The position numbers and the translations under genes were made by a program. A DNA stretch of 64,000 nt from Actinoallomurus soli (GTDB taxonomy: Bacteria > Actinomycetota > Actinomycetes > Streptosporangiales > Streptosporangiaceae), in assembly GCF_024055715.1 (NCBI RefSeq), contig NZ_JAMXMV010000009.1, positions 248,001 to 312,000 on the forward strand. Direction: 5' to 3'. The notes below the pieces were generated by a model that was not told where the DNA came from, ran no database searches, and worked only from the letters and a program-made list of their open reading frames with translations. This document shows, piece after piece, positions 27,399-57,635 of the stretch (positions are counted from its first letter, which is position 1; each line of letters opens with the position of its first letter).

Positions 27399-28685
27399 TC
27401 ACCGGGCGCAACCGGAGGTCCGGGCGGCCTCGACCGGTTCGACGTCGTAGAAGCCCAGGCCGTCCAGGTAACGGATGGTGTTGATGTCGCGCATCACGGC
27501 CTCCTCCGAGGGACTCATGAGCGTGACGACGACCGGGTACGTCAGGTCGTCGACCGTACGCCGCAGGCGCCCGCGCGGTTTCACGAGGAGATCCATGTCG
27601 TGGAAGGTCTCCAGCCCCCGGATCGCCTCCGCGTCGCGGTACCCCCGGAGCGTCCCCTCGTACGGCGACACCATGGCGACCATGGCGCAGAACCGGCGCA
27701 CCTGGTACGGATCCCCGCAACGGGCGTGGAAGCGGTCCGGCCGGACGTACGCGTCCGCGGTCCATTCGATCTGCGACTCGCCGATCCCCAGTGAGGCGTA
27801 GTAGGGGATGTCGCCGCCCGCCATGCGCGCGCCCACCTCGACCAGGCACGGACCGTCCGGAGTCATCCTGACCTCCACGTGCGCCGGGCCGTGGCGTACG
27901 CCGAGCGCGTCGAGGACCTTGCCGGCGTACTCGGTGAGGGAGGGCACGACCTTCTCGTCGGAGGCGATGAGGCAGAGCGCGTCGCAGAGGTCGGTGATCC
28001 CGTTCGCGTTGATCCGCGTGGTCTTCCACACGTCACAGAGGTGGTGCCGGCCGTCCCTGCTGACCGTGTTCACCATGTACTCCGTGCCGGAGAGGTACTC
28101 CTGCGCGACCACGCTCTCGTTGCGCCCGGCGAAGACGTCGCGGGAACCGACGAGGGACCGGTAGGCCCGCACCGACTCCTCCGGAGTGTCGCAGAACGAG
28201 ACCCCGTCGCCGCCCGCGCTGCGCAGCGGCTTGATGACGATCCGGCCGCCGAGGTCGCGATGCCAGTCCGCGAGCTCGGCCGGGTCCGTGACGAGGAGCT
28301 GGCGCGCGCCGCGCAGCCCGGCCTTCTTGATGGTCTCCACCATCAGGAACTTGTCCCGCCGCGCGGCGCTGAGCGCGGTGCCGTTGGTCGGCGTGCCGAG
28401 GCGCTCGCTCAGCAGGTCGCCGAACTCCACGCCGACCTCGCCGCCCGGGACGACGGCGACCGGGTCGAAGGCGGCGACGGCCTCCAGCGTCTTGGCGACG
28501 TCGCCGTCGTGCACGATGGAGGCGACGTAGTCGTCGAGGTCGACCGGCTCGCCGGCGTACACGGGTGGAGGCTCCGGCGTGCTCTGCACCCGCACGCACC
28601 GGTAGCCCAGCTCGCGGAAGCGCGGAGCCAGCAGCCGGGTCGGCGCGTAGGTGTCGACGAGAACGACATGGGGCTGACCACTCAT
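27399..28685 (-). CDS. ATP-grasp carboxylate-amine ligase (L-amino-acid-ligase-like)
   Basis: 428 residues. An N-terminal Rossmann-like domain (PHVVLVDTYAPTRLLAPRFRELG) leads into an ATP-grasp domain with RIVIKPLRSAGGDGVSFC as the ATP loop and HVEVRMTPDGPCLVEVGARMAGG as the Mg-binding segment. The pattern is that of dipeptide or amino-acid ligases (BacD/LAL type) rather than biotin carboxylase. It is the third gene of an operon with a polar-amino-acid permease and binding protein (1-bp spacing), which suggests the imported or exported compound is an amino acid or small peptide that this enzyme joins to another amine. The substrate is unknown. Confidence 0.85.
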   Translation of the reverse strand: MSGQPHVVLVDTYAPTRLLAPRFRELGYRCVRVQSTPEPPPVYAGEPVDLDDYVASIVHDGDVAKTLEAVAAFDPVAVVPGGEVGVEFGDLLSERLGTPTNGTALSAARRDKFLMVETIKKAGLRGARQLLVTDPAELADWHRDLGGRIVIKPLRSAGGDGVSFCDTPEESVRAYRSLVGSRDVFAGRNESVVAQEYLSGTEYMVNTVSRDGRHHLCDVWKTTRINANGITDLCDALCLIASDEKVVPSLTEYAGKVLDALGVRHGPAHVEVRMTPDGPCLVEVGARMAGGDIPYYASLGIGESQIEWTADAYVRPDRFHARCGDPYQVRRFCAMVAMVSPYEGTLRGYRDAEAIRGLETFHDMDLLVKPRGRLRRTVDDLTYPVVVTLMSPSEEAVMRDINTIRYLDGLGFYDVEPVEAARTSGCAR

Positions 28686-30397: not shown

Positions 30398-31636
30398 ATG
30401 GTCTTCACACATCTGGCCAAAGTGCGGCGCCATCTCTCGAACGGGGCGGGAGGCCGTTCGCCGGCGCGTGACCGAATGTCCGTATGGGTGGTATATACCG
30501 TACCTGCGGTGCTTTTCGTCAATACGCTGGGAAGCTTTTTCGTCCTGCTGCGGCTTTCCACCGCGGTGAGCGACGCCACCGGCTCGGGTCTGCTCGCGGG
30601 TGGGGTGCTGAGCGCCCCCTGGCTGCCCGCCCTGATCCTGGCGCCGTTCCTCAACCGCGTCCTGGGCGAGCGCGAGCCGGGGCGCCTCGTGCGGATCGCC
30701 GAGGCCACCAGCCTCCTTCTCACCGCGTCGCTCGCCATGCTGCCGGTCTCGGGCACCACGCTGGTCGTCGTCGCGGTGTCCGTCGTGCTCGCCCGCGGTT
30801 TCTTCGAGGCGATGACCCGCTCGGCGACCTCCGTCCTGCTACGCCGGATCGTCGACGCGCAGCGGCTGAACCGCGCGAACACGTTCGCCGAGATCGGCAA
30901 GCTCGCCGGCACGAGCGCCGGGGCGGCCGTCGCGGGCCCGCTGAGCGGGCCGCTGGGCCTGCACGCCTTCTTCGCCCTGGGCGCGCTCACGTTGTGCGGC
31001 TCCCTGCTGCTCGCCGCCACGCTGCCGAAGGCCGGGCCCGGCGCGGGCGAGGAGGGCGCGGCGCAGGAACGGCCGCGCCGCCTGCGGCTTGAGGATCCGG
31101 CCCTGCGGCGCCTGTTCTCGCTGTTCATGCTGGTGGCGTTCTGGCAGGGGTTCCACACGGTCGCCGTGAACGTCGTCCCGCGCGACGTGCTCGGCGGCGG
31201 GACCTCCCTCGTCGGCGTGTTCGTCGCGCTGTCGGCCGTCGCCATCTTCGCCGGATCGTTCGCGGCGCTGTCGGCGCAGCGGCGCCTCACCCGGATACCG
31301 GCGGAGGTCTGGGCGATCGCGCCGATGGCGCCCCTGGCCGCCGCGATCGCGATCGCCCGCGTGGGCCCCACACTGGCCGGATACCTGATCTTCCTGGTCC
31401 TCTTCGAGGTCGCCTACGTGGCCTACAACAACCGGCTGCTGGCCCAGGCCCGGCCGGAGGAGGTCCCGGTCGTGGTGACGCTCCGCGCCACGCTGCTGCC
31501 CGCCGGCGTCATCGTGTCGATCCTGACCGTCGGCCTGCTGTCGGACCTGGCGGGCCCGCTCGTCGCCGTGCTGGCGGTCGTCGCGGTCACGGTGCTGGTC
31601 ACGGCGGCGCCGTGGCTCGGCCGTCGCGCCCGCTGA
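30398..31636 (+). CDS. MFS transporter
   Basis: 412 residues with about 10-12 hydrophobic helices from ~30 on. It looks like an MFS_3/enterobactin-exporter type (EntS-like). The start is uncertain: ATG 30398 has no clear ribosome binding site and ATG 30476 begins right at the first helix. It lies next to the small-peptide operon, so export of that pathway's product is a reasonable guess. Confidence 0.85.
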   Translation: MVFTHLAKVRRHLSNGAGGRSPARDRMSVWVVYTVPAVLFVNTLGSFFVLLRLSTAVSDATGSGLLAGGVLSAPWLPALILAPFLNRVLGEREPGRLVRIAEATSLLLTASLAMLPVSGTTLVVVAVSVVLARGFFEAMTRSATSVLLRRIVDAQRLNRANTFAEIGKLAGTSAGAAVAGPLSGPLGLHAFFALGALTLCGSLLLAATLPKAGPGAGEEGAAQERPRRLRLEDPALRRLFSLFMLVAFWQGFHTVAVNVVPRDVLGGGTSLVGVFVALSAVAIFAGSFAALSAQRRLTRIPAEVWAIAPMAPLAAAIAIARVGPTLAGYLIFLVLFEVAYVAYNNRLLAQARPEEVPVVVTLRATLLPAGVIVSILTVGLLSDLAGPLVAVLAVVAVTVLVTAAPWLGRRAR

Positions 31637-31779: not shown

Positions 31780-31795
31780 ATTCCGAAATAGGAAT
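31780..31795. promoter_or_regulatory. Inverted repeat just upstream of the small-peptide operon promoter
   Basis: ATTCC, six bases, GGAAT, ending 12 bp before the -35 box at 31808. The position fits an activator site. Confidence 0.4.
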
Positions 31796-31807
31796 GATTT
31801 CGGTCCA

Positions 31808-31836
31808 TTGACAGCGGACATCTCACCTCTTACCGT
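31808..31836 (+). promoter_or_regulatory. Promoter of the small-peptide operon
   Basis: TTGACA (31808-31813), 17 bp, TACCGT (31831-31836): a consensus -35 with a TANNNT -10. It would give a ~260-base leader before the 18-codon ORF. The 468-bp gap 31637-32104 is markedly less GC-rich than its surroundings and holds no convincing longer gene. Confidence 0.6.
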
Positions 31837-32104
31837 GTCGAAACGTTGGGTGCTGACGTTGCTCGATTCCCGCACCGGAGGCCTACTCGAAGCGATCGAT
31901 TCCTCTCTCGCCGTACGAGACCGATAGATCCGTCAATCGAGCAGCGTTCATCTGCAATTCCCCAGCCATTCACCGCGCGACCGAATAATCCACGGGCCGA
32001 TCAGTCCCAGTGTGCCCAGGACGCCCATTCTCCGGTGGATCCGGCTTGCCGATTCGCCGGAAGGTCGTCCTATATCACGACGAGACGGAAAGGAGGTGGA
32101 AGAC

Positions 32105-32161
32105 ATGACGGACGCTCAGTTCCTGGAGACGCGTGAGGACGAGGAGGTCACCAAGTGGTGA
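32105..32161 (+). CDS. 18-residue peptide ORF: candidate RiPP precursor or leader peptide
   Basis: The ORF encodes MTDAQFLETREDEEVTKW. AAAGGAGGT (32089-32097) sits 7 bp before the ATG, a nearly perfect anti-SD match and among the strongest sites in the window, which argues that it is translated. The peptide is acidic in the middle (E, D, E, E) and ends V-T-K-W. A long hairpin follows within 20 bp and then a nine-gene-scale enzyme operon. Two readings fit: a minimal precursor peptide modified by the enzymes downstream, with the hairpin thinning transcription after it, or a leader peptide controlling the operon by attenuation. The single terminal Trp is not the usual run of regulatory codons, which slightly favours the precursor reading. 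I know no family with this sequence. Confidence 0.6.
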   Translation: MTDAQFLETREDEEVTKW

Positions 32162-32178
32162 GCCTTCACTGACTCCAC

Positions 32179-32214
32179 GGTGTCATCCGCGGCCATCGCG
32201 CCGCGGGTGACACC
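32179..32214 (+). terminator. Hairpin between the 18-codon ORF and the enzyme operon
   Basis: GGTGTCATCCGCGGC pairs with GCCGCGGGTGACACC across a 6-base loop (15 bp with one G-U pair). It begins 17 bp after the small ORF's stop and ends 43 bp before the next start. It can act as a partial terminator, attenuator or mRNA stabiliser. Confidence 0.65.
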
Positions 32215-32257
32215 GCCCCACCCGAGCGGGCCCACTCCACGGAAGGAAAGACGGCGC

Positions 32258-33604
32258 ATGGAGCCAGCGGAGGACCTCTCCGGCGGTGACGTCGGCTCTC
32301 TGACGGTCGACGGCAGCAGCGACGAGGCGTACTGGCGCGGCATCGAACGGATCACGGCGGAGCTGGACCGTTCCGCCGACCTCGACCGGCTTTGCGACCT
32401 GTCCCGGCGGCACCCGGAGTGGCCGGTGCGCGCCGCGTGCGTGCGGATCCTCGGCGCTCGGTTCGCCGACCGGCCCGCAGCCCAGGAGGCCATCGCGGCC
32501 GCCACCCACGACGAGGTGGACTGGGTCGCCTTCACCTCCATCCGGGTGTGCGGCGAGCAGCGCATCGCGCTCGCGGCGCGCGACCTCATCCGGATCTCCG
32601 GCTGGCCGAGCAACTTCACGAAGCCGGGGTACGCCCGCAAGCCGGTCGGCTGCGGCGCCGCCTTCACCAAGCGCGCCCTGATCTCCATCTTCGGCAGCGA
32701 GGACCCCGACGAGCTGCGCGCGCTGGAGAACGAGCACTTCGGCGAGGTGCTCCGCAAGGCGGCCGAGGTCCGCCCGCGCACCGTCGACGACGTCGTCCTC
32801 GTACCGGCCGGTCCGTTCGTCGCGGGAGCGACCGTGAGCGAGATCGGCCCGTTCCAGATGAACGACACCGACAACCCGCTGCGCGCGGCCGAACTGCCCG
32901 CCTTCCTCATCGACCGGACCGCGGTCACGAACGAGCGTTACGCGCGCTTCCTCGAGGACATCGGCGACAGCACCGACTTCGACCATCCCGACCAGCCGGA
33001 GCGCCCCGACCACCGGCCCGTCCACTGGCACGACCCGCGCTTCAACGCGCCCGGGATGCCGGTCGTCGGCATCGACTGGTACGACGCGTGGGCGTTCGCC
33101 AAGTGGGCGGGCGGCCGCCTGCCCAGCGAGGCCCAGTGGGAGAAGGCCGCGCGCGGCACCGACGGGCGGGTCTTCCCCTGGGGGAACGACTGGGACCCCG
33201 CGCGCGCCAATTACGTCGAGCGCGCCTTCGAGGCCGAGGTCCACGATCTGGCGGACCTCGAGAGCCTCCTCGTGAAGGTCACGGCGACGGACGTGCCGAA
33301 GCGGCCGGTGCTGCCGGCGGACAGCCTGCCGGAGGGCGCCAGCCCGTACGGCCTCCTCCACATGGCGGGCAACGTCTGGGAGATGACCCGCACCAACTTC
33401 TTCACCCGGACGGACATGGACCCGTTCTTCCGGCACCTGCGCCCGGTCGAGTTCATGAACCGCCGGGAGGCGTTCTACGTCCTGCGCGGCGGCACGTGGA
33501 CCTCCCCGCCGGTCTGCCTGACGACCTACTACCGCGGCAAGGACCTGCTGACCGACAAGCACAACGAGATCGGGTTCCGCTGCGTGTACCCGGTGGAGAG
33601 CTGA
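32258..33604 (+). CDS. HEAT-like / FGE-sulfatase (SUMF1-like) domain protein
   Basis: 448 residues from ATG 32258 behind GGAAGGAAAG. Residues ~10-160 are helical and repeat-like (AACVRILGARFADRPAAQEAI; EVDWVAFTSIRVCGEQ), resembling HEAT repeats. Residues ~185-448 are an FGE/SUMF1-fold domain: GIDWYDAWAFAKWAGGRLPSEAQWEKAARG, FPWGND, HMAGNVWEMT and the final NEIGFRCVYP. In true formylglycine-generating enzymes two copper-binding Cys lie in RGGSYLCHxSYC; here the segment reads RGGTWTSPPVCLTTYY, keeping only the second. No EgtB DinB-type Fe ligands are seen. It is likely an oxidative or structural modifier of unknown type rather than a sulfatase activator, and no sulfatase gene is nearby. Confidence 0.85.
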   Translation: MEPAEDLSGGDVGSLTVDGSSDEAYWRGIERITAELDRSADLDRLCDLSRRHPEWPVRAACVRILGARFADRPAAQEAIAAATHDEVDWVAFTSIRVCGEQRIALAARDLIRISGWPSNFTKPGYARKPVGCGAAFTKRALISIFGSEDPDELRALENEHFGEVLRKAAEVRPRTVDDVVLVPAGPFVAGATVSEIGPFQMNDTDNPLRAAELPAFLIDRTAVTNERYARFLEDIGDSTDFDHPDQPERPDHRPVHWHDPRFNAPGMPVVGIDWYDAWAFAKWAGGRLPSEAQWEKAARGTDGRVFPWGNDWDPARANYVERAFEAEVHDLADLESLLVKVTATDVPKRPVLPADSLPEGASPYGLLHMAGNVWEMTRTNFFTRTDMDPFFRHLRPVEFMNRREAFYVLRGGTWTSPPVCLTTYYRGKDLLTDKHNEIGFRCVYPVES

Positions 33605-33608
33605 CAGG

Positions 33609-34973
33609 ATGCGACTGACCACGTTCGGCCACGCCGCGGTGCTGGTCGAGACGGGATCCGAGCGGATCCTGGTCGATCCCTGGCTGACGCCGAGACTCGA
33701 CCGCTTCTGGGAGCGCTGGCCCGCCATGCCGGACGGGCTGCTCGACGTCCTGGACGGCGGGGTCGACCACATCGTGTTCAGCCACCACCACTTCGACCAC
33801 CACCACTTCCCGAGCCTCCGGCTTCTGTCGGACGACCCGGAGGTGGACTTCGACGAGATGCCCGCGCGCGCCGCCGAGACGCACTGCGTCTGGCCCCGGC
33901 GTCCCGGCCGGCCGCGGCCGACCGCCTCCGGCCTCGGTCATCAGGCGATCGGCTGGACGCTGCGCCGGCTCGGCTTCACCCGCTCGACGGCCGTCCAGCC
34001 GGGCGACACCGTGCAGCTCGGCGACACGCGGCTGCGCACGTCGGTCTCCCGCGTGCCCTTCCCCGAGATGCCCCTTCTCCTGGAGGGCCCCGACGCCACG
34101 GTGATGCTCTGCGGCGACGCCATGCTGCACCCCGACACCCAGGCGTGGTTCGCCGGTCCGGACGCCCCCCGCGTCGACGTCGCCCTCATCCCGGCGCACA
34201 GCATCGCGCCGCCGGGGGTGCTCACCGAGCGCCGCCCGCTGAGCGGGGTCGAGGACGTGCGGGCGCGGGCGCGCGCCAACTTCGACCGCTGGGTCGCGAC
34301 CGTCGACGCGGGGCTGACCATCCCGTCCTCGTTCGGATGGCGCGTCGGCGGGGAGAACGGCGAGTTCTCCTGGTGCAACAAGGCGATCTTCCCGTTCACC
34401 CCCTGGCAGGCGCTCGAACGGCTGAAGGAGACCGGGCGGCCCGGCGCGCTGTGGGGACCCGGGCAGACGCTGGAGGTCGCCGGCGGGCGGGCCACCCTCT
34501 CCGAGAGCCGGTACGACTTCGCCTCCGTCTTCGAGGAGGTGACGCTCGACCCCGACGCGAAGATCCCGGCCTTCTCCCCCGAGCACGACCGTGTCGGCGC
34601 CCAGCGGGAGCCCACCGGTGAGCTGGTGGGCCGGCTCATGGACCACCTCGTCGGCACCGAGCTGTGGTACCGCGCGGTGGACGACGGCGACGGCCACGTT
34701 CTCAGCGTCACCGAGGACACCGGCACCACCCGGCACTTCGTGCTCGACTTCGCCGGCGGGCGCGTCCTGCCGTTCGGCGGGGAGAGCGACGGCGGCGAGG
34801 GGTACACCCGGATCGCCGGCTCCACGCTGCAGGCGCTCTTCGACGCCGAACTGCTGTTCGGCAGCTCGTACGCCCTGTGGGCGAGCAACGACGCGGTGCT
34901 GTCCGCCGTCTTCCACGATCCCCGGTGGTACGTCCGGCACGTGAACGCCGCGCTGGCGGGGAGCGGCCGATGA
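33609..34973 (+). CDS. UlaG-like metallo-beta-lactamase-fold hydrolase
   Basis: 454 residues, starting 4 bp after the FGE-like stop. It opens with MRLTTFGHAAVLVETGSERI, typical of the UlaG/lactonase branch. The metal motif H-x-H-x-D-H is within SHHHFDHHHF (~58-66), and further His/Asp ligands are likely at GDAMLHPD and PAHS. The C-terminal ~170 residues have no match I recognise. The branch hydrolyses lactones, phosphodiesters and similar bonds or acts with oxidases; the substrate here is unknown. The stop overlaps the esterase start (ATGA). Confidence 0.88.
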   Translation: MRLTTFGHAAVLVETGSERILVDPWLTPRLDRFWERWPAMPDGLLDVLDGGVDHIVFSHHHFDHHHFPSLRLLSDDPEVDFDEMPARAAETHCVWPRRPGRPRPTASGLGHQAIGWTLRRLGFTRSTAVQPGDTVQLGDTRLRTSVSRVPFPEMPLLLEGPDATVMLCGDAMLHPDTQAWFAGPDAPRVDVALIPAHSIAPPGVLTERRPLSGVEDVRARARANFDRWVATVDAGLTIPSSFGWRVGGENGEFSWCNKAIFPFTPWQALERLKETGRPGALWGPGQTLEVAGGRATLSESRYDFASVFEEVTLDPDAKIPAFSPEHDRVGAQREPTGELVGRLMDHLVGTELWYRAVDDGDGHVLSVTEDTGTTRHFVLDFAGGRVLPFGGESDGGEGYTRIAGSTLQALFDAELLFGSSYALWASNDAVLSAVFHDPRWYVRHVNAALAGSGR

Positions 34974-35992
34974 CGGCGGACGTGCGCCGCCGGAGCGGCT
35001 ACACCGTCGTCACGATCGAGCACGAGAGCGCCCTGCTCGCCGGCAACCCCCTCGGCGACCCGCACCGCCGCGAGATCCTGGTGCTCGCCCCGCGGGAGCC
35101 GTCGGAGCGCCCATTGCCCGTGGTGTACCTCCTCAGCGGGTACGGCTCGCGCGGGCGCGGCCTCCTCGCCGACCACGTGCTCGGCGACGGGCTCACCGGA
35201 ATCGTCGGCGGCCTGGTCGACGCGGGACGGCTGCCGCCGTCGTACGTCGTGCTCCCGGACTGCACGACCCGGTACGGCGGCTCGCAGTACCTCGACTCGC
35301 CGATGTGCGGGCCCTACCAGCGGTACCTGCTCGACGAGATCGTCCCGGCGGTCGACGAGCGGTTCCCGACCGTGCGGGCGGCACGGGGCCGCGCGGTGAT
35401 GGGCAAGTCGAGCGGCGGTTACGGAGCCGTCATGGCCGCGGCCCTCCGGCCGGGGGTGTTCGGGCACGTGATCGCGCACACGCCCGACGCGGGCTTCGAG
35501 CACTGCTACTTGTCGCTGCTGCCCCGTGTCCTGGACACGCTGCGGGAGCGCGGCGGGATCGGCACGCTGACGGGTCCCGGCTACGAGGGGCCCTTCGACG
35601 CCGCGTTCATGGTCGCGATGAGCCTGGTCGCCATGGGCGTCTGCTACGCCCCTGAAGGAGTGTCCGACCCCGCCGCCGCGTTCGTCTGCGATCCGGACAC
35701 CGGGCGGTTCCGCGACGACGTCTGGAGCGCCTGGCTGTCCCACGACCCGGTGCGTCTCGCCGCCCGGCGGGCGCCGGCGCTCCGGGAACTCGGCTCCTTC
35801 TTCCTCGACGTCGGGAGCCGCGACGAGTACGGGATGCGCTGGGGCGTGCGGGCCCTGGACGCGGCGCTGACGGACGCCGGCGTGCCGCACACGTTCGAGG
35901 AGCACGGCGGCGGCCATCACGGGATCGAGCACCGGTTCGCGCGGTCCCTGTCCCTGCTCGGGCGGCACTGGAGCGCGTCATGTGCGGAATAG
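34970..35992 (+). CDS. Esterase (Fes/esterase D-like alpha/beta hydrolase)
   Basis: 340 residues from ATG 34970 (ATGA overlap). It has the nucleophile elbow GKSSGGYGA, an Asp candidate in LDVGSRDEYGMRWG and the His in HGGGHHGIEHR, and begins with a beta-strand-rich half like S-formylglutathione hydrolase or enterobactin esterases. It may cut an ester or lactone formed in the pathway, or remove an acyl group. Confidence 0.9.
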   Translation: MTADVRRRSGYTVVTIEHESALLAGNPLGDPHRREILVLAPREPSERPLPVVYLLSGYGSRGRGLLADHVLGDGLTGIVGGLVDAGRLPPSYVVLPDCTTRYGGSQYLDSPMCGPYQRYLLDEIVPAVDERFPTVRAARGRAVMGKSSGGYGAVMAAALRPGVFGHVIAHTPDAGFEHCYLSLLPRVLDTLRERGGIGTLTGPGYEGPFDAAFMVAMSLVAMGVCYAPEGVSDPAAAFVCDPDTGRFRDDVWSAWLSHDPVRLAARRAPALRELGSFFLDVGSRDEYGMRWGVRALDAALTDAGVPHTFEEHGGGHHGIEHRFARSLSLLGRHWSASCAE

Positions 35993-37821
35993 CGGGCTTC
36001 GTCAGCCTCGACGGACCGCGCGACCGGGACCGGCTCGCCGCGCTCGGCGCGCGGATGACCGCGGCGCTGCGGCACCGCGGCCCGGACGGCGACGGCGTCC
36101 ACGTCTCGGCCGACGGCCGGGTCGTGCTCGGCGCCACCCGGCTGGCCGTACGGGACCTCAGCGACGCCGGCGACCAGCCCATGCACAGCCCCGACGGTCA
36201 GGTCACGCTCGTCTACAACGGAGAGCTCTACCGCGACCGGAACCCCGCGGGTACTCCGCCATGGCCGCTGCGCGGCGGCTGCGACACCGAGGAGTTCCTG
36301 CGGATCGTCTACGAGCGGTCCGAGGCCGCGCTCCCCGGCCTCGACGGCATGTTCGCGGCGGCGTGGCACGACCGGCGCACCGACCGGCTGGTGCTGGCCC
36401 GTGACCACTTCGGCGTGAAACCGCTGGTGTGGGCGCGGGTCGACGGCGGGCTCCTGTTCGCCTCGGAGATCGGCGCGCTGCTGGCCTCCGGCCTGCTGGA
36501 CGCCCGGGTCGAGCCGCTCACGTTCCTGCACCGCGCGTACGTCCGGATGGACGCGGTGGACGACGGAACCTGGATCGCCGGCGTCCACTCGCTGGAGCCC
36601 GCGCACACCCTCGTGGTCGACCTGCGCGACGGCTCGGTGCGGCGGCGGCGGTACTGGGCGCCCGTGGCGGCGGAGGAGCCGATCGCGCCGGAGGTCCTGC
36701 GGGCGGCGTTCCACGAGGCGGTGGCGATGCGCCGGCCGTCGGACGTCCCGATGGCGGCCGTGGTCAGCGGCGGCGTCGACTCCTCGGCGGTCTTCGGAGC
36801 CCTGCGCCGCCTCGACTGCGACGTCGCGCCGTACGTCGTCCGCTACGAGGGCGCCGACGAGGGCCAGAACGAGGACGTGCCCTACGCGGTGGAGGTGGCG
36901 CGCCTCGGCGGCCGCGAACCCGTCCTGTGCGACATCCGGGTCGATGACGTCGCCGCGCTCGCCACGCGGCTCGCGCCGCACCTGCAGCGCCCGTTCCTGC
37001 ACGGCGCCGAGCTCGCGCTGTTCCGCACGTACGAGCGCATCGCCGCGGACCGGCGGACCGTGGTGTTCTCCGGGCACGGCTCCGACGAGCTGTGGGGATA
37101 CCAGGAGGGCCGCTACTTCCCGATCGCCGATCCGGCGCGCCCGCTCGACACGCACGGCGAGCACTACCTGCGAACCCGCCTCTACCGGGACGAGCGGCCC
37201 GGCTGGCACCGCATGCTCGACGCCCTGGCCGGGCAGCTCGGCGTGGCGGAACGGGACATCACCGACCTGGTGTGGGAGCGCACCCTCGCCCCGTACCGCG
37301 AGCTGGAGACGCTCGATCCGCACAAGCGCGGCCGTCACCACCTCATGCGCCGGTTCCTCGTCTACGTCAACGAGATGGTGGACGCGTGCTCGTCGGCGTT
37401 CTCCCTGGAGGACCGGCCGTCCTTCCAGGACGTCACGCTCGCGGAGATCGCCTTCGGCATGCCCGAGCACGTGAAGAACCGGGAGGGGCCGGGCACGGTC
37501 AAGCCCTTCCTCAAGCAGGCGGTGCGGCACCTGCTGCCGGACGGCGTCCTGAACCGGCCGAAGAAGGGGTTCCCGTCACCGGGCGACCCGGCCTTCCGCG
37601 ACCGGCTCGTCGCCCTGGTCCGCGACACCGGGCTGCCCTACGATCTGCGGCTGGACGGAGCCCTCTTCGACGAACTGGGCATCGGGGAGCTGATGTTCCT
37701 GTTCTCGGCCCGCGTCTGGCTCGACGGGCTCCGCGTGCGGCCGGCCGACCCGGCCCCGATTCGAGTCTCTTCCCATCGACAAGGAGGTCAAGGGCGTGTG
37801 GAAGCATCGGGCCCTCGCTGA
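35980..37821 (+). CDS. asnB: Asparagine synthase (glutamine-hydrolysing)-like amidotransferase
   Basis: 613 residues. Cys2 of MCGIAGF is the class II glutaminase nucleophile, followed by YNGELYR. The synthetase half has the PPi loop VVSGGVDSSAVFG and FSGHGSDELWGYQEG. Both halves appear intact, so it should transfer ammonia from glutamine to an adenylated carboxylate. The start overlaps the esterase gene by 13 bp. In pathways AsnB homologues make aspartate-like, malonamyl or peptide amides; its place directly in this operon implies amidation of the pathway product rather than general asparagine supply. Lasso-type cyclases are related but lack the working glutaminase. Confidence 0.9.
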   Translation: MCGIAGFVSLDGPRDRDRLAALGARMTAALRHRGPDGDGVHVSADGRVVLGATRLAVRDLSDAGDQPMHSPDGQVTLVYNGELYRDRNPAGTPPWPLRGGCDTEEFLRIVYERSEAALPGLDGMFAAAWHDRRTDRLVLARDHFGVKPLVWARVDGGLLFASEIGALLASGLLDARVEPLTFLHRAYVRMDAVDDGTWIAGVHSLEPAHTLVVDLRDGSVRRRRYWAPVAAEEPIAPEVLRAAFHEAVAMRRPSDVPMAAVVSGGVDSSAVFGALRRLDCDVAPYVVRYEGADEGQNEDVPYAVEVARLGGREPVLCDIRVDDVAALATRLAPHLQRPFLHGAELALFRTYERIAADRRTVVFSGHGSDELWGYQEGRYFPIADPARPLDTHGEHYLRTRLYRDERPGWHRMLDALAGQLGVAERDITDLVWERTLAPYRELETLDPHKRGRHHLMRRFLVYVNEMVDACSSAFSLEDRPSFQDVTLAEIAFGMPEHVKNREGPGTVKPFLKQAVRHLLPDGVLNRPKKGFPSPGDPAFRDRLVALVRDTGLPYDLRLDGALFDELGIGELMFLFSARVWLDGLRVRPADPAPIRVSSHRQGGQGRVEASGPR

Positions 37822-38848
37822 CGCCGCGGAACTCCCGGCACGGCCGTCGGCGGTGCCGCCGGAACAGGCACAGGAGTGGTGCAATTTCGTCGTGTGGACC
37901 CCCGAACGTCTGCCGGCCGGGTGCGAGCTGCTGACGGGCACCCTCCGTAAGGAGGCTCCGCCGGGCCGGCTCGAGGAGCACCTCTCGGGTCACACTCCGT
38001 GGAGCGACAACAACCCCGCCGCCTACCGGTTCGAGATCGCCGGGGACGGCCGGCGGCTGCGGGTCAAGGAGTTCCTGTACGACTGGGCCTTCCCCGCCCT
38101 CGACCACCCCTGCCTCTGGGAGAGCCGGACCCACGCGGCTCCGGTCGACGACCGCCACGTCGTGTGGTTCGGCACGGACTATCTGAAGAACGCCGCCGCG
38201 TCGGCCCGGCTCGACCGTACGACGGTGGAGCTCTCCGTGCTGTCGGGGACGTTCGCCGAGGAGGAGATCCTCGACCTCTACCGGGCGATGCGGCCGGCCG
38301 ACCCCGCGGTCGCCGCCGAGTTCGCCGCGACGCCGTTCGCCGCGCTGAGCTACTGGGCGCGCCGCGCGGACGCCGCCGCCGTCAACGTCCCGGTGGGGCT
38401 GTGGACCTTCCGCCGCCGGCGCTCGCACGAGAGCCGGTGGTCGACCGGCGCGGAGGCCGAACGCCTCGTCACGGAGCTGGGCCTGCCGCCCGCGCTGGGC
38501 GGGCTGGACCTGGACAGCGCGGCACGGTTCGTCGACGACCAGGGCCGCGAGGACGTCGAGGCCGTCTACTCGGGCCGCCCGGAGCGGGGCCGCGAGCTGC
38601 GGGTGATCGCCCAGAAGCGCGGCCGGGGCAGCCTGCGCGTCCCGTCCGAGCCTGAGGACCAGCCCGGTGAGCGGGACACCGTCCGCGTCGGCGGCGTCGA
38701 TGTCCAGCTCGGCTGGATCGACGAGCGGTACGGCCCCTTCCAGGCCGTGTACGCCCACGGCGACGTCGAGGCGACCCTCCTCAGCAGCACCGGGGTCGGC
38801 CTGGACCGCGCGTGGTTCCTCGACGCGCTCGCCGCGGCGATGCCCTGA
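37796..38848 (+). CDS. Uncharacterised protein of the small-peptide operon
   Basis: 350 residues, GTG start behind AAGGAGG, overlapping the asnB end by 26 bp. No signal peptide, membrane helix or cofactor motif was seen. Two regions of similar style occur: CELLTGTLRKE...YRFEIAGDGRRLRVKEFLYDW near 50-90 and LGWIDERYGPFQAVYAHGDVEATLL near 300-330, both beta-strand-rich. The close coupling to asnB suggests a partner or substrate-binding role, perhaps recognising a peptide. I do not recognise the family. Confidence 0.8.
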   Translation: MWKHRALADAAELPARPSAVPPEQAQEWCNFVVWTPERLPAGCELLTGTLRKEAPPGRLEEHLSGHTPWSDNNPAAYRFEIAGDGRRLRVKEFLYDWAFPALDHPCLWESRTHAAPVDDRHVVWFGTDYLKNAAASARLDRTTVELSVLSGTFAEEEILDLYRAMRPADPAVAAEFAATPFAALSYWARRADAAAVNVPVGLWTFRRRRSHESRWSTGAEAERLVTELGLPPALGGLDLDSAARFVDDQGREDVEAVYSGRPERGRELRVIAQKRGRGSLRVPSEPEDQPGERDTVRVGGVDVQLGWIDERYGPFQAVYAHGDVEATLLSSTGVGLDRAWFLDALAAAMP

Positions 38849-38898
38849 CGTCCCCGAGACGAGAAGTCCCGATCCGCTCTACCCGGAGGTGAGACAGG

Positions 38899-40347
38899 AT
38901 GACCCCGCGTCCCGGCCTGCTGGACCGGATCGGCGGTGTGGCCGTACGCGGCCGGATCGAGAAGGCGCGGGGACCGTCCCGGGTGCTGTACGACCCGTCG
39001 TACGGCACGCCGATCGCCGAGTTCGCCGAGGCGTCCGCCGATGAGGTCGCCGCGGCCGTCGCAGAGGCGGTGCGGGCGTTCCCGGCGTGGGCCGGATGCC
39101 ATCCGCGGGACCGGCAGGACGTCCTGCTCGCGCTCGCGGACCAGGTCGACCGGGCCACGGACGAGCTCACGGAGCTGGAGGCGCTGAACTCCGGCAAGCC
39201 GCTCGCCCAGGCCCGCGGCGAGATGACCTTCGCCGTCCGCACCCTGCGCTATTTCGCCGGCACGCCGATGCGGCCGACCGGCGAGCTCAATCCGTCGGCC
39301 GGGGGCACGCTCGCCTACACCGACCGCACCCCGCTCGGCGTCTGCGCGGCGATCGCGCCGTCGAACTACCCGCTGCTCCTGTCGGTCTGGAAGCTCGCCG
39401 CGGCGCTGGCGTACGGCAACACCGTCATCCTGAAACCGGCGGAGGAGACGCCGCTGTCGGCGCTGCGGTTCGCGGAGCTGGCGCACGACGCCGGCCTGCC
39501 GCCGGGCGTCCTGGCCGTCGTGACGGGCGGTCCGGAGACGGGCCGGCTGCTGTGCCGGCACCCCGACGTGGCGGCGGTCTCCTTCACCGGATCCACCGCC
39601 GCGGGCCGCGACGTCGCGGCCCTGTGCGCCGAGGGGATCAAGCCGGTCTCGCTGGAGCTCGGCGGGGTGAGCCCGTTCGTGGTGCTCGCCGACGCGGACC
39701 TGGACGCGGCCGCGGCGGCGCTGGTCGAGGGGTTCACCGGCAACACGGGCCAGATGTGCGTGGCCGCCGGGCGGCTCATCGTCGAGAGCCCGGTGCGCGA
39801 GGCGTTCGTCGAGCGGGTGGCCCGGGCCGCGGCCGCCAGGCGGATCGGCCCGGCCTTCGACCCCGGCACCGAGCTGGGGCCGCTGGTCAGCGCGGAGGCA
39901 CGGGACCACTGGGCGCGGCAGGTCGACCGGGCCCTGACGGCCGGCGCACGCGTCGTCGAACCGCGCGGCGCCGAACCGTCCGGCGGCGGCTACTACGTCG
40001 CTCCGGTCGTCCTGGACGGCGTGCGCCCGGACATGCCGATCGCCCGGGAGGAGGTCTTCGGGCCGGTGCTCCCGGTCATCGACGCCCCTTCGGCGGACGA
40101 GGCGCTCCGGCTCGCCGCCGACACGCGGTTCGGTCTCGCCGCGTCCCTGTGGACCCGCGACCTCCACCAGGCGCACCGCGCCGCCGGAGCCCTCCGTGCC
40201 GGGATGGTGTGGATCAACACCTACGGTGACACCGAGGAGCACATCAGCGTGGGCGGCATCGGCCTGTCCGGCTACGGCAGAGAGCTCGGCGAGCACGCGC
40301 GGGAGCAGTACACCGCCACCCGGGCCGTCTTCCTGGCGCACGGTTAG
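38899..40347 (+). CDS. Aldehyde dehydrogenase (NAD(P)-dependent)
   Basis: 482 residues behind CGGAGGTGA. Catalytic Cys in NTGQMCVAAGR, general-base Glu in SLELGGVSPF, NAD-binding FTGSTAAGR and IAPSNYPLLL. The C-terminus HISVGGIGLSGYGRELG is typical of betaine/aminobutyraldehyde-type members. It probably oxidises an aldehyde intermediate of this pathway. The usual fold length is retained. Confidence 0.93.
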   Translation: MTPRPGLLDRIGGVAVRGRIEKARGPSRVLYDPSYGTPIAEFAEASADEVAAAVAEAVRAFPAWAGCHPRDRQDVLLALADQVDRATDELTELEALNSGKPLAQARGEMTFAVRTLRYFAGTPMRPTGELNPSAGGTLAYTDRTPLGVCAAIAPSNYPLLLSVWKLAAALAYGNTVILKPAEETPLSALRFAELAHDAGLPPGVLAVVTGGPETGRLLCRHPDVAAVSFTGSTAAGRDVAALCAEGIKPVSLELGGVSPFVVLADADLDAAAAALVEGFTGNTGQMCVAAGRLIVESPVREAFVERVARAAAARRIGPAFDPGTELGPLVSAEARDHWARQVDRALTAGARVVEPRGAEPSGGGYYVAPVVLDGVRPDMPIAREEVFGPVLPVIDAPSADEALRLAADTRFGLAASLWTRDLHQAHRAAGALRAGMVWINTYGDTEEHISVGGIGLSGYGRELGEHAREQYTATRAVFLAHG

Positions 40348-40355
40348 GCGGCGGC

Positions 40356-41381
40356 GTGCACGTCATCGACCTGCGCAGTGACACGAGGACGAGGCCGGAC
40401 TCCCGGATGCGCGCCGCGATGGCGCGGGCGGAGGTCGGCGACGACAGCTTCGGCGACGATCCGACCGTCGCGGAGCTGGAGGAACGGGTCGCCGACCTGC
40501 TCGGCGCCAAGGCGGCGCTGTTCACCGCCGGAGGGACCATGAGCAACCTGCTCGCGGTCCTCACCGGTGCCGGCGCCGGCGGAGGGTCGGTCGTGGCCGG
40601 GGCGCAGTCGCACCTGCTCCACCACGAGAACGACGGCGCGCGCGTGCTCGCCCGCGCGCGGATCCACACCGTGCCGGACCCGCACGGCGAGCTCGACGAG
40701 GACGCCGTGACCGCCGCGCTGGCCGAGGGGGCCCGCCCGTCCCTCCTCTGGCTCGAGAACACCAGCAACCGGTACGGCGGCAACGCCCTCGACGAGGCGT
40801 CCCTGCGCCGGCAGGCCGCTCCGGCCCGGAGCGCCGGAGCCGCGGTGCACCTCGACGGCGCCCGCCTGGCCAACGCCGCCGTCGCCCTCGGCCGCAGCCC
40901 CGCGGAGCTGGCCGCCGTCGCCGACACCGTGTCGTTCTCGCTGTGCAAGGGGCTCGGCGCGCCGGCCGGATCCCTGCTGTGCGGTCCGGCCGAGCTGATC
41001 CAGGAGGCGCGTTACTTCCGCCGGATGATCGGCGGAACGCTCCATCAGGCCGGGGTGCTGGCGGCCGCCGGCCTGGTCGCGCTGGACCGTCTCCCCGACC
41101 TGGCCGAGGACCACCGCCGGGCCGCCGCGCTACGCGCGGCGCTGGCCGGCGTCGCGGGCGTCGAGCCGTCCGCCATCCCCCGGCCGACGAACATGGCGTT
41201 GTTCCGGGTCCCCGGCGTCCCCGCCGAGAAGGCGCTCGAACGGCTGGCCGGCGCCGGGGTCCTGGGGCTGCCGATCACCGCCGACCTCGTACGGCTGGTG
41301 GTGCACCGCGAGCACTCCGACACCGACATCGAGCGGGCCGCCGAGCGGATCGCCGCGGTCTTTCCCGGAGGGAAGATATGA
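40356..41381 (+). CDS. Threonine aldolase-like PLP enzyme
   Basis: 341 residues, GTG start. It has the family opening IDLRSDTRTRPDSRMRAAM, GGTMSNLLA, HLDGARLANAAVAL and the PLP lysine in FSLCKGLGAPAGS. These enzymes cleave or form beta-hydroxy-alpha-amino acids from glycine and an aldehyde; with the adjacent aldehyde dehydrogenase and dioxygenase it may build or break down a beta-hydroxy amino acid. The stop overlaps the next ATG. Confidence 0.93.
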   Translation: MHVIDLRSDTRTRPDSRMRAAMARAEVGDDSFGDDPTVAELEERVADLLGAKAALFTAGGTMSNLLAVLTGAGAGGGSVVAGAQSHLLHHENDGARVLARARIHTVPDPHGELDEDAVTAALAEGARPSLLWLENTSNRYGGNALDEASLRRQAAPARSAGAAVHLDGARLANAAVALGRSPAELAAVADTVSFSLCKGLGAPAGSLLCGPAELIQEARYFRRMIGGTLHQAGVLAAAGLVALDRLPDLAEDHRRAAALRAALAGVAGVEPSAIPRPTNMALFRVPGVPAEKALERLAGAGVLGLPITADLVRLVVHREHSDTDIERAAERIAAVFPGGKI

Positions 41382-42136
41382 ACCCGATCGACGAACTGCG
41401 GACCGAAGGCTACGTCGTCCTGAACGGGCTGGCGGACGCGGCCGGCCTCGGCCGGCTGCGGGCCGTCGTCGCCGGCCTGGAGGCGGCGGCCGCCGAGATG
41501 ACGCGATCCACCGACGACTTCGTGCTGGAGGCCGAGGGGGTCGGCGGCTGGGTGGCGTGGCAGCAGGGGACCGCCGCGGTGCCCGGCACCCTGCGGTCGG
41601 TCAGCCGGGTCCACGTCCACCGGCCCGAGCTCGTCCGGATCGCCGCGGACCTGGGCCTGCCGGGCAAGCACGTGGAACCCGCGGTGGGAACGCCGGTGGA
41701 GCTCATCAACACCTTCCTCTGGGCGAAACCGGCGCGGGTGGGCTCGGAGAAGCCGTGGCACCAGGACATGGCCTTCGCCCCCGACGGGTTCACCGACCGG
41801 CACGGCAACGTCGTCACCGTGTGGGTGGCGATCGATCCCGCGACACGGGAGAACGGCTGCCTGGAGTTCTACCCCGGCTCGCACCGCGGCGGGCTCCTCC
41901 CCCACGTCGGCGACGAGGAGCGCACCGGCGACGGGCCGCGCCTGGAACGCCCGGTCGAGCCGCACATCGACGCGGCCGCGCTACCGGCGGACTCCACGCC
42001 CGTACGGGTGCCGCTGGCCCCGGGCTCGGCGGTGATGTTCGACGGCCGGATCGTGCACCGGTCGGCCCCCAACAGCGCGGGGACTCCCCGGCGGGCCATC
42101 AGCTTCGTCTACGCGCTCCCGCGCGACGGCAACTGA
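41378..42136 (+). CDS. Phytanoyl-CoA dioxygenase (PhyH) family Fe(II)/2-oxoglutarate oxygenase
   Basis: 252 residues from ATG 41378 (ATGA overlap, CGGAGGGAAG upstream). The iron triad is visible as H-x-D in WHQDMAF and the distal His in GRIVHRSAPN, with the oxoglutarate Arg close behind (RRAISF). It is the last gene of the operon and probably hydroxylates an amino acid or peptide intermediate. Confidence 0.92.
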   Translation: MNPIDELRTEGYVVLNGLADAAGLGRLRAVVAGLEAAAAEMTRSTDDFVLEAEGVGGWVAWQQGTAAVPGTLRSVSRVHVHRPELVRIAADLGLPGKHVEPAVGTPVELINTFLWAKPARVGSEKPWHQDMAFAPDGFTDRHGNVVTVWVAIDPATRENGCLEFYPGSHRGGLLPHVGDEERTGDGPRLERPVEPHIDAAALPADSTPVRVPLAPGSAVMFDGRIVHRSAPNSAGTPRRAISFVYALPRDGN

Positions 42137-42172: not shown

Positions 42173-43489
42173 TCACTCCGGGGTGACGGCGGTGGCGTGC
42201 CCGTCGTAGGGGGCCGGGCCGTCCTGGAGCCCCCCGCTCCGGGCGCGGCCGCCGAGCCGTGCCGGCAGGACGCAGGCCGCGCCCAGGACGGCGAGCCCGA
42301 CCGTCGAGAGGCCGGAGAGCAGCAGGGTGCCCCCCGAGCCCAGGTCGGCCACCAGCCGCCCTCCCAGCGCCGCGCCGAGCGGGGTCGCCGAGACCAGGAT
42401 GGCGCTGCGGAACGCGCTCAGGCTCACCAGCTCGTCCGGGGGCGCCTCCCGCTGCATGAGGGTGACCGACAGCGGGCCGTACGGGGCGTAGATCAGCCCG
42501 CCCACGGCGAAGCCCGCGATCCCCGCGGCGAGGGTGCCGAACGCCGCCAGGGGGAGCATCGCCAGACCCCAGCCGGCGACGATGGCGAGCGTGGCCGGCC
42601 ACAGCGGCAGGCGGCGCAGCGCTCCGGTGATCACCGTGCCGGTCACCGCTCCGGCCCCGAACGCGCCCCAGATCCAGCCGAGCGTCGTCGGGTCCCCGCC
42701 CAGGTGGTCGGCGACGAACACCGGGACCGCCACCTCGACCGGCCCGTAGAGCAGGTAGAACAGGTAGCTGAGCGCCAGCAGGCCCACCAGCGCGGGACGG
42801 TGGGCGAAGGTCCGTACGGTCCGGCGCAGCGGGATCGGCGGCCGGCGGCCCACCGTGCCCCGCACGCGTACGCGTACGACCGTCAGGGTCATGAAGGCGT
42901 AGCTGAGCGCGTCGCACAGCAGCACGGCGCCGGGGCCGAGCACCGACGCCACGGCGCCCGCGAGGGGCGGGCCCGCGATGTAGGAGAACTGCTCCTCGCC
43001 GGCGATCATCGAGTTGCCCGCCAGGCGGCTCTCCGGCGGCAGGCACTCGGCGACGAAGGTCTGCCGCCCGGCGATGCCCCAGGCGTGCAGCAGTGAGGAC
43101 GACGCGAGCAGGATGATGTAGGTGGTGGCGTCCAGCAGCCCCGCCCACTGCAGCACCGGGATCAGCGTGAAGACGATCCCGCGCAGCACCGAGTCCAGGA
43201 GGATGAGGCTGCGGGCGTCGCGTGAGCTCAGCCAGCGTCCCAGCGCGATCGACCCGATCGCCCCCGGCAGCGAGTAGGCCGCGACGGCGAGCCCGGTCAC
43301 GGTGGCCCGGTCGGCGGGCGAGGCGAGCCGGATGGCCAGCCAGGCGACGCCCAGCAGGCTCATCCCGTCGCCGATGAAGGAGACCAGGAAGCCGGGCTGC
43401 ATCCGGCGGAAGTCCCGGTCGGCCAGGCAGCGGGCGTAGCCCTCGGGCACCAGCCGGCGAAGACGCCCGCTCCGCCCGCTCAACGTCAT
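42173..43489 (-). CDS. MFS transporter
   Basis: 438 residues with about twelve hydrophobic helices and the MFS loop motif GRWLSSRDARSL between helices 2 and 3 (~83-95). EntS/MFS_3-like. It follows the AraC/CMD-like/sulfotransferase genes on the same strand (138-bp gap) and may export the product of either neighbouring pathway. Confidence 0.9.
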   Translation of the reverse strand: MTLSGRSGRLRRLVPEGYARCLADRDFRRMQPGFLVSFIGDGMSLLGVAWLAIRLASPADRATVTGLAVAAYSLPGAIGSIALGRWLSSRDARSLILLDSVLRGIVFTLIPVLQWAGLLDATTYIILLASSSLLHAWGIAGRQTFVAECLPPESRLAGNSMIAGEEQFSYIAGPPLAGAVASVLGPGAVLLCDALSYAFMTLTVVRVRVRGTVGRRPPIPLRRTVRTFAHRPALVGLLALSYLFYLLYGPVEVAVPVFVADHLGGDPTTLGWIWGAFGAGAVTGTVITGALRRLPLWPATLAIVAGWGLAMLPLAAFGTLAAGIAGFAVGGLIYAPYGPLSVTLMQREAPPDELVSLSAFRSAILVSATPLGAALGGRLVADLGSGGTLLLSGLSTVGLAVLGAACVLPARLGGRARSGGLQDGPAPYDGHATAVTPE

Positions 43490-45622: not shown

Positions 45623-45734
45623 AGTCACCTCACTGCATTCCGTACCGGCCATCAGAGTGGCCCGCGTGCGTCGCGGTCAGGTCGAGCAGCGCTCGGGACG
45701 CGCCCGGAGGGCAAGCTACGAGATGGATGCGTCG

Positions 45735-45762
45735 GGCGATCGGCGCACGCTAAGAGATCGCC
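45735..45762. promoter_or_regulatory. Inverted repeat in the AraC/carboxylase divergent region
   Basis: GGCGATC, 14 bases, GATCGCC, 27 bp before the carboxylase ATG; a possible regulator site. Confidence 0.4.
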
Positions 45763-45788
45763 GAAGCCCCGCCGTAGGAGAAGAACGC

Positions 45789-47381
<1,593 letters not shown>

Positions 47382-47384
47382 CGC

Positions 47385-47410
47385 GCTCCCCGGCCCGGAG
47401 GCCGGGGAGC
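47385..47410. terminator. Bidirectional hairpin between carboxylase and ABC exporter genes
   Basis: GCTCCCCGGCC, CGGA loop, GGCCGGGGAGC: a perfect 11-bp stem right after the carboxylase stop and before the convergent exporter stop at 47432. Confidence 0.8.
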
Positions 47411-47431
47411 CGGTCCGCGTCGTGTCAGGGG

Positions 47432-49225: not shown

Positions 49226-49231
49226 AGGACC

Positions 49232-49501
49232 CTACGAGGCTTCCTGCACGGTGAGCTGCGCGTTGACGGCCTCGATCAGGGCTCGAGGGGTGGGCGAGTC
49301 GAACAGCGTCGAGTCGTCCAGCGTGATGCCGAACTCCCGCTCGATCCGGCTACCGGTCTCCAGCAGCGCCAGGGACTCATAGCCGAGCTCGATGAACTCG
49401 GTGTCCATGGTGCCGACGTCGACGTCGGCGCCGTCACTCTCGCCGGCGGCCTCGTGGAGGATGCGCTTGAGGTCCTGAACGGTGAATTCACCGGATGCCA
49501 T
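49232..49501 (-). CDS. Type II PKS acyl carrier protein
   Basis: 89 residues. The phosphopantetheine Ser is Ser43 in ELGYESLALLETGSRIE; the usual D-S-L reads E-S-L. The sequence otherwise matches aromatic polyketide ACPs. It lies 24 bp after the chain-length factor gene. It carries the growing poly-beta-ketone chain. Confidence 0.95.
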   Translation of the reverse strand: MASGEFTVQDLKRILHEAAGESDGADVDVGTMDTEFIELGYESLALLETGSRIEREFGITLDDSTLFDSPTPRALIEAVNAQLTVQEAS

Positions 49502-49525
49502 GCTCGTTCCCTTCGTTCGGTCCGT

Positions 49526-52011: not shown

Positions 52012-52334
52012 GCGGACTCCCAGCTGTAGAACCTCTTCGCCATGGCGTCCGCCGGCGATCGCCAGGTCGCCGGGTCGTAGGGGTCGATGAAGGGCTTGAG
52101 GTCCGCGCTGATCCGAATGAAGCGCGGATCGGTCTTCGCCTCCTCGATGAGCTCCCCGCCGTTCTCGCCGTCGAAGTCCTGGAGGTGGAAGTACAGGCCG
52201 TGGAACGAGAAGAGCTGACGTCGCCGCGTGCCCATGCGATGGGGCATGTCGGTCTCGTCGAAAGCGCGGAAGAGCTCGGCCACCTCGGCGCTCGAACGAG
52301 GGTCCATCCTGGCCACGATCAAATTGCTGTGCAT
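52008..52334 (-). CDS. Polyketide cyclase, TcmI/JadI-type
   Basis: 108 residues from ATG 52334 ([12 protein letters not shown], the usual opening); an ATG at 52358 would add eight residues, but GAGGTGG lies between the two. It has the family block [16 protein letters not shown] and RFYSWE, as in the ferredoxin-like-fold cyclases of tetracenomycin and angucycline clusters. It guides late-ring closure of the poly-beta-ketone. First gene of the PKS operon. Confidence 0.93.
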
Positions 52335-53212: not shown

Positions 53213-53258
53213 CCACCGGGGCCGCGCTCGGCGTCGCGGCCCATGGAGCGGCTCCGTC

Positions 53259-54035: not shown

Positions 54036-54051
54036 GACGCTCCCCTCACAC

Positions 54052-55654: not shown

Positions 55655-55655
55655 T

Positions 55656-55705: not shown

Positions 55706-55713
55706 GTACGCCG

Positions 55714-57629: not shown

Positions 57630-57635
57630 TGGGCT

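Follow-up and report, generated by a model that had tools for sequence, protein, structure and literature searches.

In a 64,000-nucleotide stretch of the genome of Actinoallomurus soli (RefSeq assembly GCF_024055715.1, contig NZ_JAMXMV010000009.1, positions 248,001 to 312,000; hereafter the window), an 18-codon open reading frame (ORF) ending in Lys-Trp (KW) precedes a gene for a protein that combines N-terminal HEAT-like repeats with an FGE-sulfatase (SUMF1) domain, here called HEAT-FGE. Short ORFs with the same ending accompany HEAT-FGE genes in Actinomycetota, in an alphaproteobacterium and in a metagenome-assembled genome (MAG) of the Bacillota. Judged from these sequence comparisons, the 18-codon frame is a genuine gene, and its pairing with HEAT-FGE is beyond chance. 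Since the pairing recurs in three phyla, an undescribed kind of small natural product is probably made from the short protein. We consider it likely that the peptide is a precursor of the ribosomally synthesized and post-translationally modified peptide (RiPP) type, or a ribosomal carrier, whose C-terminal Lys-Trp would be oxidised by HEAT-FGE, together with a PhyH oxygenase in A. soli, and then released and elaborated.

Recurrence of the peptide gene beside HEAT-FGE

A scan of a genome collection with HEAT-FGE alignment gave 79 loci, and 24 loci from it (L010-L033) encode HEAT-FGE at 58-96% identity, or 47% in the case of Stappia (L030). Peptide genes were sought by a rule (the KW rule) that accepts an ORF of 14 to about 60 residues with a ribosome-binding site and an end of KW plus 0-2 residues. 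By this rule a KW peptide is present in all 34 of the loci that encode a protein with the HEAT part, namely the 24 above, the window, a second cassette of A. spadix (L007), the Bacillota MAG (L034), five plasmid loci (L089-L092 and L094), L096 and L097; L103 is a 35th HEAT-FGE locus with a KW peptide. The rule itself demanded Lys-Trp, and the independent view is given by a rule-free list of short upstream ORFs bearing a ribosome-binding site, in which a KW-ending peptide appears in 21 of 27 loci (L010-L035 and L088). The rule adds peptides in L019, L030, L034 and the second A. spadix cassette, as well as in L028, where the start is backed by a weak ribosome-binding site (GGGG) only. The peptide usually starts 121-329 nt upstream of the enzyme match. 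The exceptions are Stappia, where it lies 1.7 kb upstream and precedes a metallo-beta-lactamase-fold (MBL) gene, and the Bacillota MAG, where it lies 1.8 kb downstream, in the middle of the operon after a methyltransferase gene.

Generic FGE-domain loci served as controls. None of 53, all with that much sequence, has a KW ORF in the 350 nt upstream, and two (L054 and L078) have one further downstream; homologues that do not include the HEAT part (L035, L055 and L056) have no KW peptide. The rule gave 32 hits in 30 loci (1.24 Mb, both strands counted), 30 of them at HEAT-FGE; the generic loci, 747 kb searched on both strands, gave six. On both strands of the window there is a single hit, the 18-residue peptide. 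Many loci are closely related, and their number is not a number of independent events; the strongest independent cases are Stappia, the Bacillota MAG and a group of peptides ending in KWAA. In Thermomonospora (L008/L031) the place equivalent to that of the window peptide, MTDAQFLETREDEEVTKW, holds MTERDFIRTRDEEQDTTKW with its own ribosome-binding site; the shared proteins are 50-67% identical and the intergenic DNA has no extended similarity.

Conservation of the peptide and of a hairpin behind it

The peptides of full cassettes follow the consensus M-(S/T)-(D/E)-x-x-F-(I/L/M)-x-T-R-(D/E)...(T/S)-K-W; the one in the window has a residue fewer. All of the full-cassette peptides compared terminate in free Trp. 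When 16 peptide genes were compared by codon, Lys-Trp was constant while leader residues varied, and the stops were TGA, TAG and TAA. Over 11 distinct 19-codon peptide genes the ratio of non-synonymous to synonymous differences (pN/pS) was 0.54. Variant C-termini are KWD, KWEA and KWAA, and the KWAA group reads MKTLRQWNALRSQRKGGVRPAGKYFKWAA. The scanned KW peptides match no Pfam or NCBIfam model. Conservation in related loci reaches past the ribosome-binding site, with the KW end as the invariant part, and the peptide gene proposed in the initial annotation, which had tied its case to such conservation, stands.

A strong hairpin of differing sequence lies between the peptide and HEAT-FGE in all eight loci folded. 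In the window it has the 15 pairs first described for it, and the region folds at -44.9 kcal/mol (z -4.1); z is -1.98 in L012 and -3.46 to -6.59 in the others folded. By eye, six of the eight hairpins have no T run, the other two being those of L011 and L018 with their T-rich stretch, and the window scan scored no terminator at the hairpin.

Organization of the cassette in the window

The features of the cassette are as follows.

27399..28685, minus strand: ATP-grasp amino-acid ligase, resembling dapdiamide A synthase below the cut-off of that model
30398..31636, plus strand: major facilitator superfamily (MFS) transporter of the cassette
31808..31836, plus strand: promoter-like site read in the sequence, TTGACA (31808-31813), spacer of 17 nt, TACCGT (31831-31836)
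32087..32098, plus strand: ribosome-binding site GGAAAGGAGGTG of the peptide gene, 6 nt 5' of the ATG
32105..32161, plus strand: putative precursor or carrier peptide gene, 18 residues and stop, ending T-K-W
32179..32214, plus strand: hairpin of 15 bp between the peptide gene and the enzyme genes (folding)
32258..33604, plus strand: HEAT-FGE (SUMF1/EgtB-like) protein, proposed oxygenase acting on the peptide (Pfam, profile, alignment)
33609..34973, plus strand: MBL protein, hydrolase or diiron oxygenase (domain match)
34970..35992, plus strand: PF00756 esterase/alpha-beta hydrolase, candidate for core release
35980..37821, plus strand: AsnB-type amidotransferase with N-terminal Cys2
37796..38848, plus strand: U350, a 350-residue protein of no family, proposed peptide-binding partner
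38899..40347, plus strand: aldehyde dehydrogenase (ALDH; Pfam/NCBIfam)
40356..41381, plus strand: GntG-family pyridoxal-phosphate aldolase (threonine-aldolase type)
41378..42136, plus strand: PhyH iron/2-oxoglutarate oxygenase
42173..43489, minus strand: MFS transporter adjoining the cassette

Much of this had been described in the initial annotation. The 18-codon ORF with its near-perfect ribosome-binding site was borne out, as was the tight packing of the eight genes behind the hairpin, which overlap by 4-26 bases or are separated by 4-50. The gene families guessed there agree with Pfam and NCBIfam, with some refinements; the "threonine-aldolase-like" protein is indeed of that aldolase type and can be placed in the GntG family (302 bits against a cut-off of 230). 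Among the cassette proteins, Pfam and NCBIfam find no LanB/C, YcaO, radical SAM or lasso B protein, as had been noted. The extent given, eight genes, was too small, since the ATP-grasp ligase and MFS genes also belong to the cassette. The promoter-like site lies where it had been placed, and A. spadix has TTGACA-17-TAGCGT at the equivalent position; "consensus" was too strong a word, and a strict sigma-70 scan scores no promoter in this stretch because the -10 element matches the consensus at only 3 of 6 bases. The presumed 5' leader also contains an inverted repeat, TTGCTCGATT (31857-31868) and AATCGAGCAG (31937-31948), which is largely kept in A. spadix.

HEAT-FGE and the other cassette enzymes

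HEAT-FGE matches the FGE-sulfatase domain at 1.1e-47 (Pfam). Its HEAT part scores 21.2 bits, below the Pfam cut-off of 27.7, and the HEAT-like repeats are backed by helix pairs in the model and by a profile match to a designed alpha-repeat protein. The nearest solved structures by profile are CalU17, then EgtB and FGE. These proteins and PvdO share the FGE-sulfatase domain, to which HEAT-FGE adds the N-terminal repeats, and it falls far below the NCBIfam cut-offs. At the positions that we take to be the copper-binding cysteines of FGE, alignment by eye shows Ser in place of the first, and no Cys at the second in Stappia and the Bacillota MAG; as this Cys pair is not kept, a catalytic formylglycine-generating enzyme was rejected. 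EgtB carries a DinB domain with metal-binding His. HEAT-FGE has no DinB match (Pfam) and scores 79.2 bits against the EgtB cut-off of 360, and a sulfoxide synthase of this kind was likewise rejected.

Each of the 27 HEAT-FGE family members compared has H243, D245, H256, D433, H435 and E437. Among generic relatives H243 is found in 33% and D245 in 35% (57 sequences), H256 in 5% (58 sequences), and D433, H435 and E437 in 14% each, the last three from seven sequences only. In nine FGE-domain proteins of KWAA-type cassettes, H243, D245 and E437 occur in all nine, D433 and H435 in six and H256 in one. The H-x-D...H arrangement may recall a metal-binding triad, the model of this domain being weak.

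The structure nearest to the AsnB-type protein is a "hydroxyamidotransferase" (7ylz, 3.4e-31), and with the NCBIfam asparagine synthase model the protein scores 268.3 bits, barely over the cut-off of 267.1. The lasso cyclase model asks for 525 bits, of which it reaches 114; this and the lack of a B protein in Pfam and NCBIfam led us to reject a lasso peptide. U350 has no family in Pfam or NCBIfam, and its profile matches no PDB chain at E<=1.

Variants of the cluster

The peptide and HEAT-FGE occur in several kinds of surroundings. A minimal module of peptide, HEAT-FGE, PhyH, a second FGE-domain protein and MFS is found in A. spadix, Streptomyces plasmids and the Bacillota MAG. The window type, which adds MBL, esterase, AsnB, U350, ALDH and GntG, is found in 15 other loci, 14 of which also have the ATP-grasp, PhyH and MFS genes; the stretch of L012, of this type, contains no PhyH or MFS. 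In the Streptomyces clavuligerus type (also L022 and L032) a class II aldolase, a luciferase-like monooxygenase, aminotransferases, a PNPOx-like protein and a P450 are present, and the Stappia type has MBL, HEAT-FGE, CobW, two U350 homologues and PNPOx, with a nonribosomal peptide synthetase nearby. Of three further Streptomyces loci (L026-L028), L026 encodes a methyltransferase with the histidine-specific domain, and L027 and L028 encode homologues of it.

Some of these loci deserve description in their own right. In A. spadix (L007, 2326-6007) the minimal module, with a second peptide that ends FKWAA, adjoins the first cassette. Plasmid pSCL4 of S. clavuligerus (L089, 13600-22000) carries the peptide MTAEDFLGSREAGEAATKW and a HEAT-FGE cluster, with no polyketide synthase (PKS) in the stretch viewed. 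The Bacillota MAG (L034, 2976-10529) carries genes for HEAT-FGE, a methyltransferase, the KW peptide, a solute-binding protein, PhyH, another FGE-domain protein and MFS, and its first HEAT-FGE is apparently split across two overlapping frames.

A proposed pathway and its alternatives

In the pathway that we propose, the peptide would be translated and serve as a substrate, its N-terminal F-x-x-T-R-D/E motif acting in recognition and its C-terminal Lys-Trp forming the core. HEAT-FGE, as the class-defining enzyme, would oxidise the Lys-Trp end while this is still attached to the leader, with the help of PhyH in the window cassette, and U350 probably presents the peptide to it. A hydrolase, either the esterase or the MBL protein, would then free the modified end, which AsnB, ALDH, the GntG-type aldolase and the ATP-grasp ligase may convert to a small molecule or building block; the MFS proteins would export the product. 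Where and how the end is oxidised, in which order the steps run and what product results are predictions of this model.

The initial annotation had offered two roles for the ORF, a substrate of a new class or a regulatory leader. The substrate role is now the better supported, by one enzyme family across three phyla, by the invariant Lys-Trp and by the placement of the peptide gene in Stappia and the Bacillota MAG. A leader would sense Trp or Lys charging through its translation, or stall at K-W-stop, and set the expression of the enzyme genes via the hairpin. The short ORF followed by a hairpin in every locus folded is what such a leader would show, and a crude duplex calculation leaves room for alternative pairing between coding region and hairpin. 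The window peptide, however, has a single Trp codon, most of the hairpins have no T run and none was scored as a terminator in the window, and the ORF is paired with one enzyme family rather than with a Trp or Lys pathway. This role is further weakened because in Stappia and the Bacillota MAG the peptide is not directly before the FGE gene, where a cis-acting leader should be, and we regard it as improbable. Still further from acceptance is a short frame that is not a gene and reflects conservation of DNA only. The plasmid records viewed carry no annotation of the ORF, their gene table being incomplete, but the ORF recurs in three phyla, with no similar flanking DNA in the aligned pair, and 30 rule hits at HEAT-FGE stand against two elsewhere in the same 30 loci; the chance of this seems negligible.

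A narrower version of the proposed pathway, overlapping with it, would have only the last Trp modified and released as a single amino acid, as in pearlins, with beta-hydroxylation by PhyH, retro-aldol cleavage by the GntG-type enzyme and ALDH then making an acid (e.g. indole-3-carboxylate plus glycine). The grouping of these three enzymes and the free terminal Trp of the compared full cassettes are in its favour, and carrier-peptide logic is described for 3-thia amino acids in the available part of PMC9303977. The Trp is, however, encoded ribosomally, Lys is as constant as Trp, the KWD, KWEA and KWAA variants have no terminal Trp, and no PEARL or LanB-like gene was found among the cassette proteins; as a separate account it is possible but rather unlikely. 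PQQ and mycofactocin are made from precursor peptides, and a KW peptide matured into a redox cofactor for the oxidoreductases of the pathway itself would be a comparable case. The clusters are rich in such enzymes (ALDH, PNPOx-like, luciferase-like, P450 and FAD enzymes), and the peptide/HEAT-FGE pair sits in unrelated biosynthetic surroundings. MFS genes nevertheless accompany the minimal module, the ligase, amidotransferase and aldolase suggest an end product, and no single dehydrogenase family was seen to be common to all cluster types; a cofactor is less probable even than a regulatory leader.

Comparison with known systems

Crocagin of Chondromyces crocatus (cgn) is closest to the proposed RiPP-type pathway in logic, with other proteins. 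As described in the available part of PMC10070186, its precursor of 21 residues has a C-terminal Ile-Tyr-Trp core, and the pathway includes an iron/2-oxoglutarate oxygenase (CgnC), separate peptide-binding proteins and CgnD, a serine hydrolase by which the core is released; that part names no HEAT-FGE. A crocagin-type Tyr-Trp core was rejected for the peptides here, all of which have Lys-Trp (as the rule asked; 21 of 27 in the rule-free list). CgnB and CgnE are of aminopeptidase fold. The profile of U350 finds no solved chain at the threshold given above, in a copy of the PDB that was not checked for these two proteins. Two diverged U350 homologues near the KW peptide of Stappia (L030, 1-1002 and 12403-13503) are reminiscent of the CgnB/CgnE pair.

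In the carriers of pearlins/3-thiaglutamate and ammosamide, as far as PMC9303977 covers them in the part seen, the C-terminal amino acid of a ribosomal peptide is modified and released. The pearlin amino acid is added by PEARL, whereas Lys-Trp is encoded here; membership of the pearlin class was rejected on the absence of PEARL among the cassette proteins in Pfam and NCBIfam, more distant genes being only partly scanned. Asparagine-synthetase-like enzymes such as PesC, TsrC, FzmA and TsnB9 amidate or nitrilate peptide C-termini or move N-X groups from glutamyl donors, according to the parts available of PMC13060819 and PMC6133997. A few large fusion proteins that combine a bufferin domain with cytochrome c and FGE-sulfatase domains are mentioned in PMC12452194, on MNIO RiPPs; in these the partner of the FGE domain is a bufferin precursor domain, and the portion at hand describes no short KW peptide or HEAT-FGE cassette.

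A search limited to open-licence papers found no description of the KW-peptide/HEAT-FGE pairing, nor any report of a HEAT-SUMF1 enzyme acting on a short precursor peptide. If our proposal is correct, a RiPP-type class defined by such an enzyme would be new, with very short precursors and a spread over three phyla. A KW-stop ORF beside a HEAT-FGE gene is a rule by which these clusters can be found, including one in the well-studied S. clavuligerus.

Association with hydrazine and polyketide genes

The initial annotation knew of no described cluster to match. This holds for the cassette itself in the literature searched, but a kinamycin-type hydrazine/type II PKS cluster adjoining it had been missed. 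To the right of the cassette (45657-63741) are genes for a type II PKS ketosynthase, chain length factor, acyl carrier protein and cyclase, and a SARP regulator. The same region contains homologues of KinN, KinM, KinK and KinL, at the level of family matches rather than of direct comparison with the Kin proteins; the families among them are an amidase, a glutamine-synthetase-like protein, an adenylosuccinate-lyase-like protein and a GNAT protein, listed here without assignment to the single Kin names. A 666-residue protein stands where the fifth, KinJ, would, and is probably KinJ, by place and size only. On its gene content, and with the functions described for KinJKLMN in the available part of PMC6133997, the region appears to be a hydrazine/diazo polyketide cluster of the kinamycin type; the kinamycin and fosfazinomycin accounts in that part name no HEAT-FGE cassette. 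The five-gene hydrazine set is also annotated in one Streptomyces KinL plasmid record, and another viewed stretch has no amidase.

A KinL-like protein of at least 59% identity is encoded in all 16 full-cassette genomes (the window genome and 15 others). Among nine genomes that have HEAT-FGE without the full cassette, no protein exceeds 36% identity to KinL in eight, and the ninth (G368) reaches 58%. KinL lies within 35 kb of the cassette on the same contig in 10 of the 16 and on another contig in six. In two of the six, G346 and G351, the contig extends at least 54 and at least 146 kb past the cassette, so that KinL looks unlinked there; the other four contigs are short. On the full-cassette plasmids NBC_01244 and NBC_00525, KinL is about 10-12 kb from the cassette. 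Among seven Streptomyces KinL plasmids, SUMF1 genes occur in NBC_01244, NBC_00525, NBC_00704, S. coelicoflavus NBC_00357 and SYP-A7193. The first 40 kb of the NBC_00099 plasmid, the portion viewed, contain no HEAT-FGE or KW ORF, and the whole record of the Streptomyces sp. AMCC400023 plasmid has no HEAT-FGE match and no KW ORF. Because of the latter, the cassette is, on the gene content compared, an accessory frequently found with the hydrazine/polyketide pathway. If our proposal holds, it would offer a case in which the travelling of a ribosomal peptide pathway with a polyketide/hydrazine pathway can be put to the test.

The boldest reading is a RiPP-polyketide hybrid built through N-N chemistry, in which AsnB would couple hydrazine from glutamylhydrazine of the KinJKLMN type to an (indole) acid derived from Lys-Trp after oxidation by HEAT-FGE and PhyH, the ribosomal fragment then decorating a diazofluorene-type polyketide. 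Transfer of hydrazine by AsnB is suggested because the neighbouring genes probably make glutamylhydrazine and AsnB is near the hydroxyamidotransferase, and we think the hybrid unlikely, though a shade less so than a regulatory leader.

Two further genes were seen. The hydrazine/HEAT-FGE region of S. coelicoflavus includes a gene annotated as an enediyne antibiotic chromoprotein (L093, 40156-40572), which is also present in L103, and on the AMCC400023 plasmid (L105, 5305-7491) a condensation-domain protein is encoded near a PNPOx gene.

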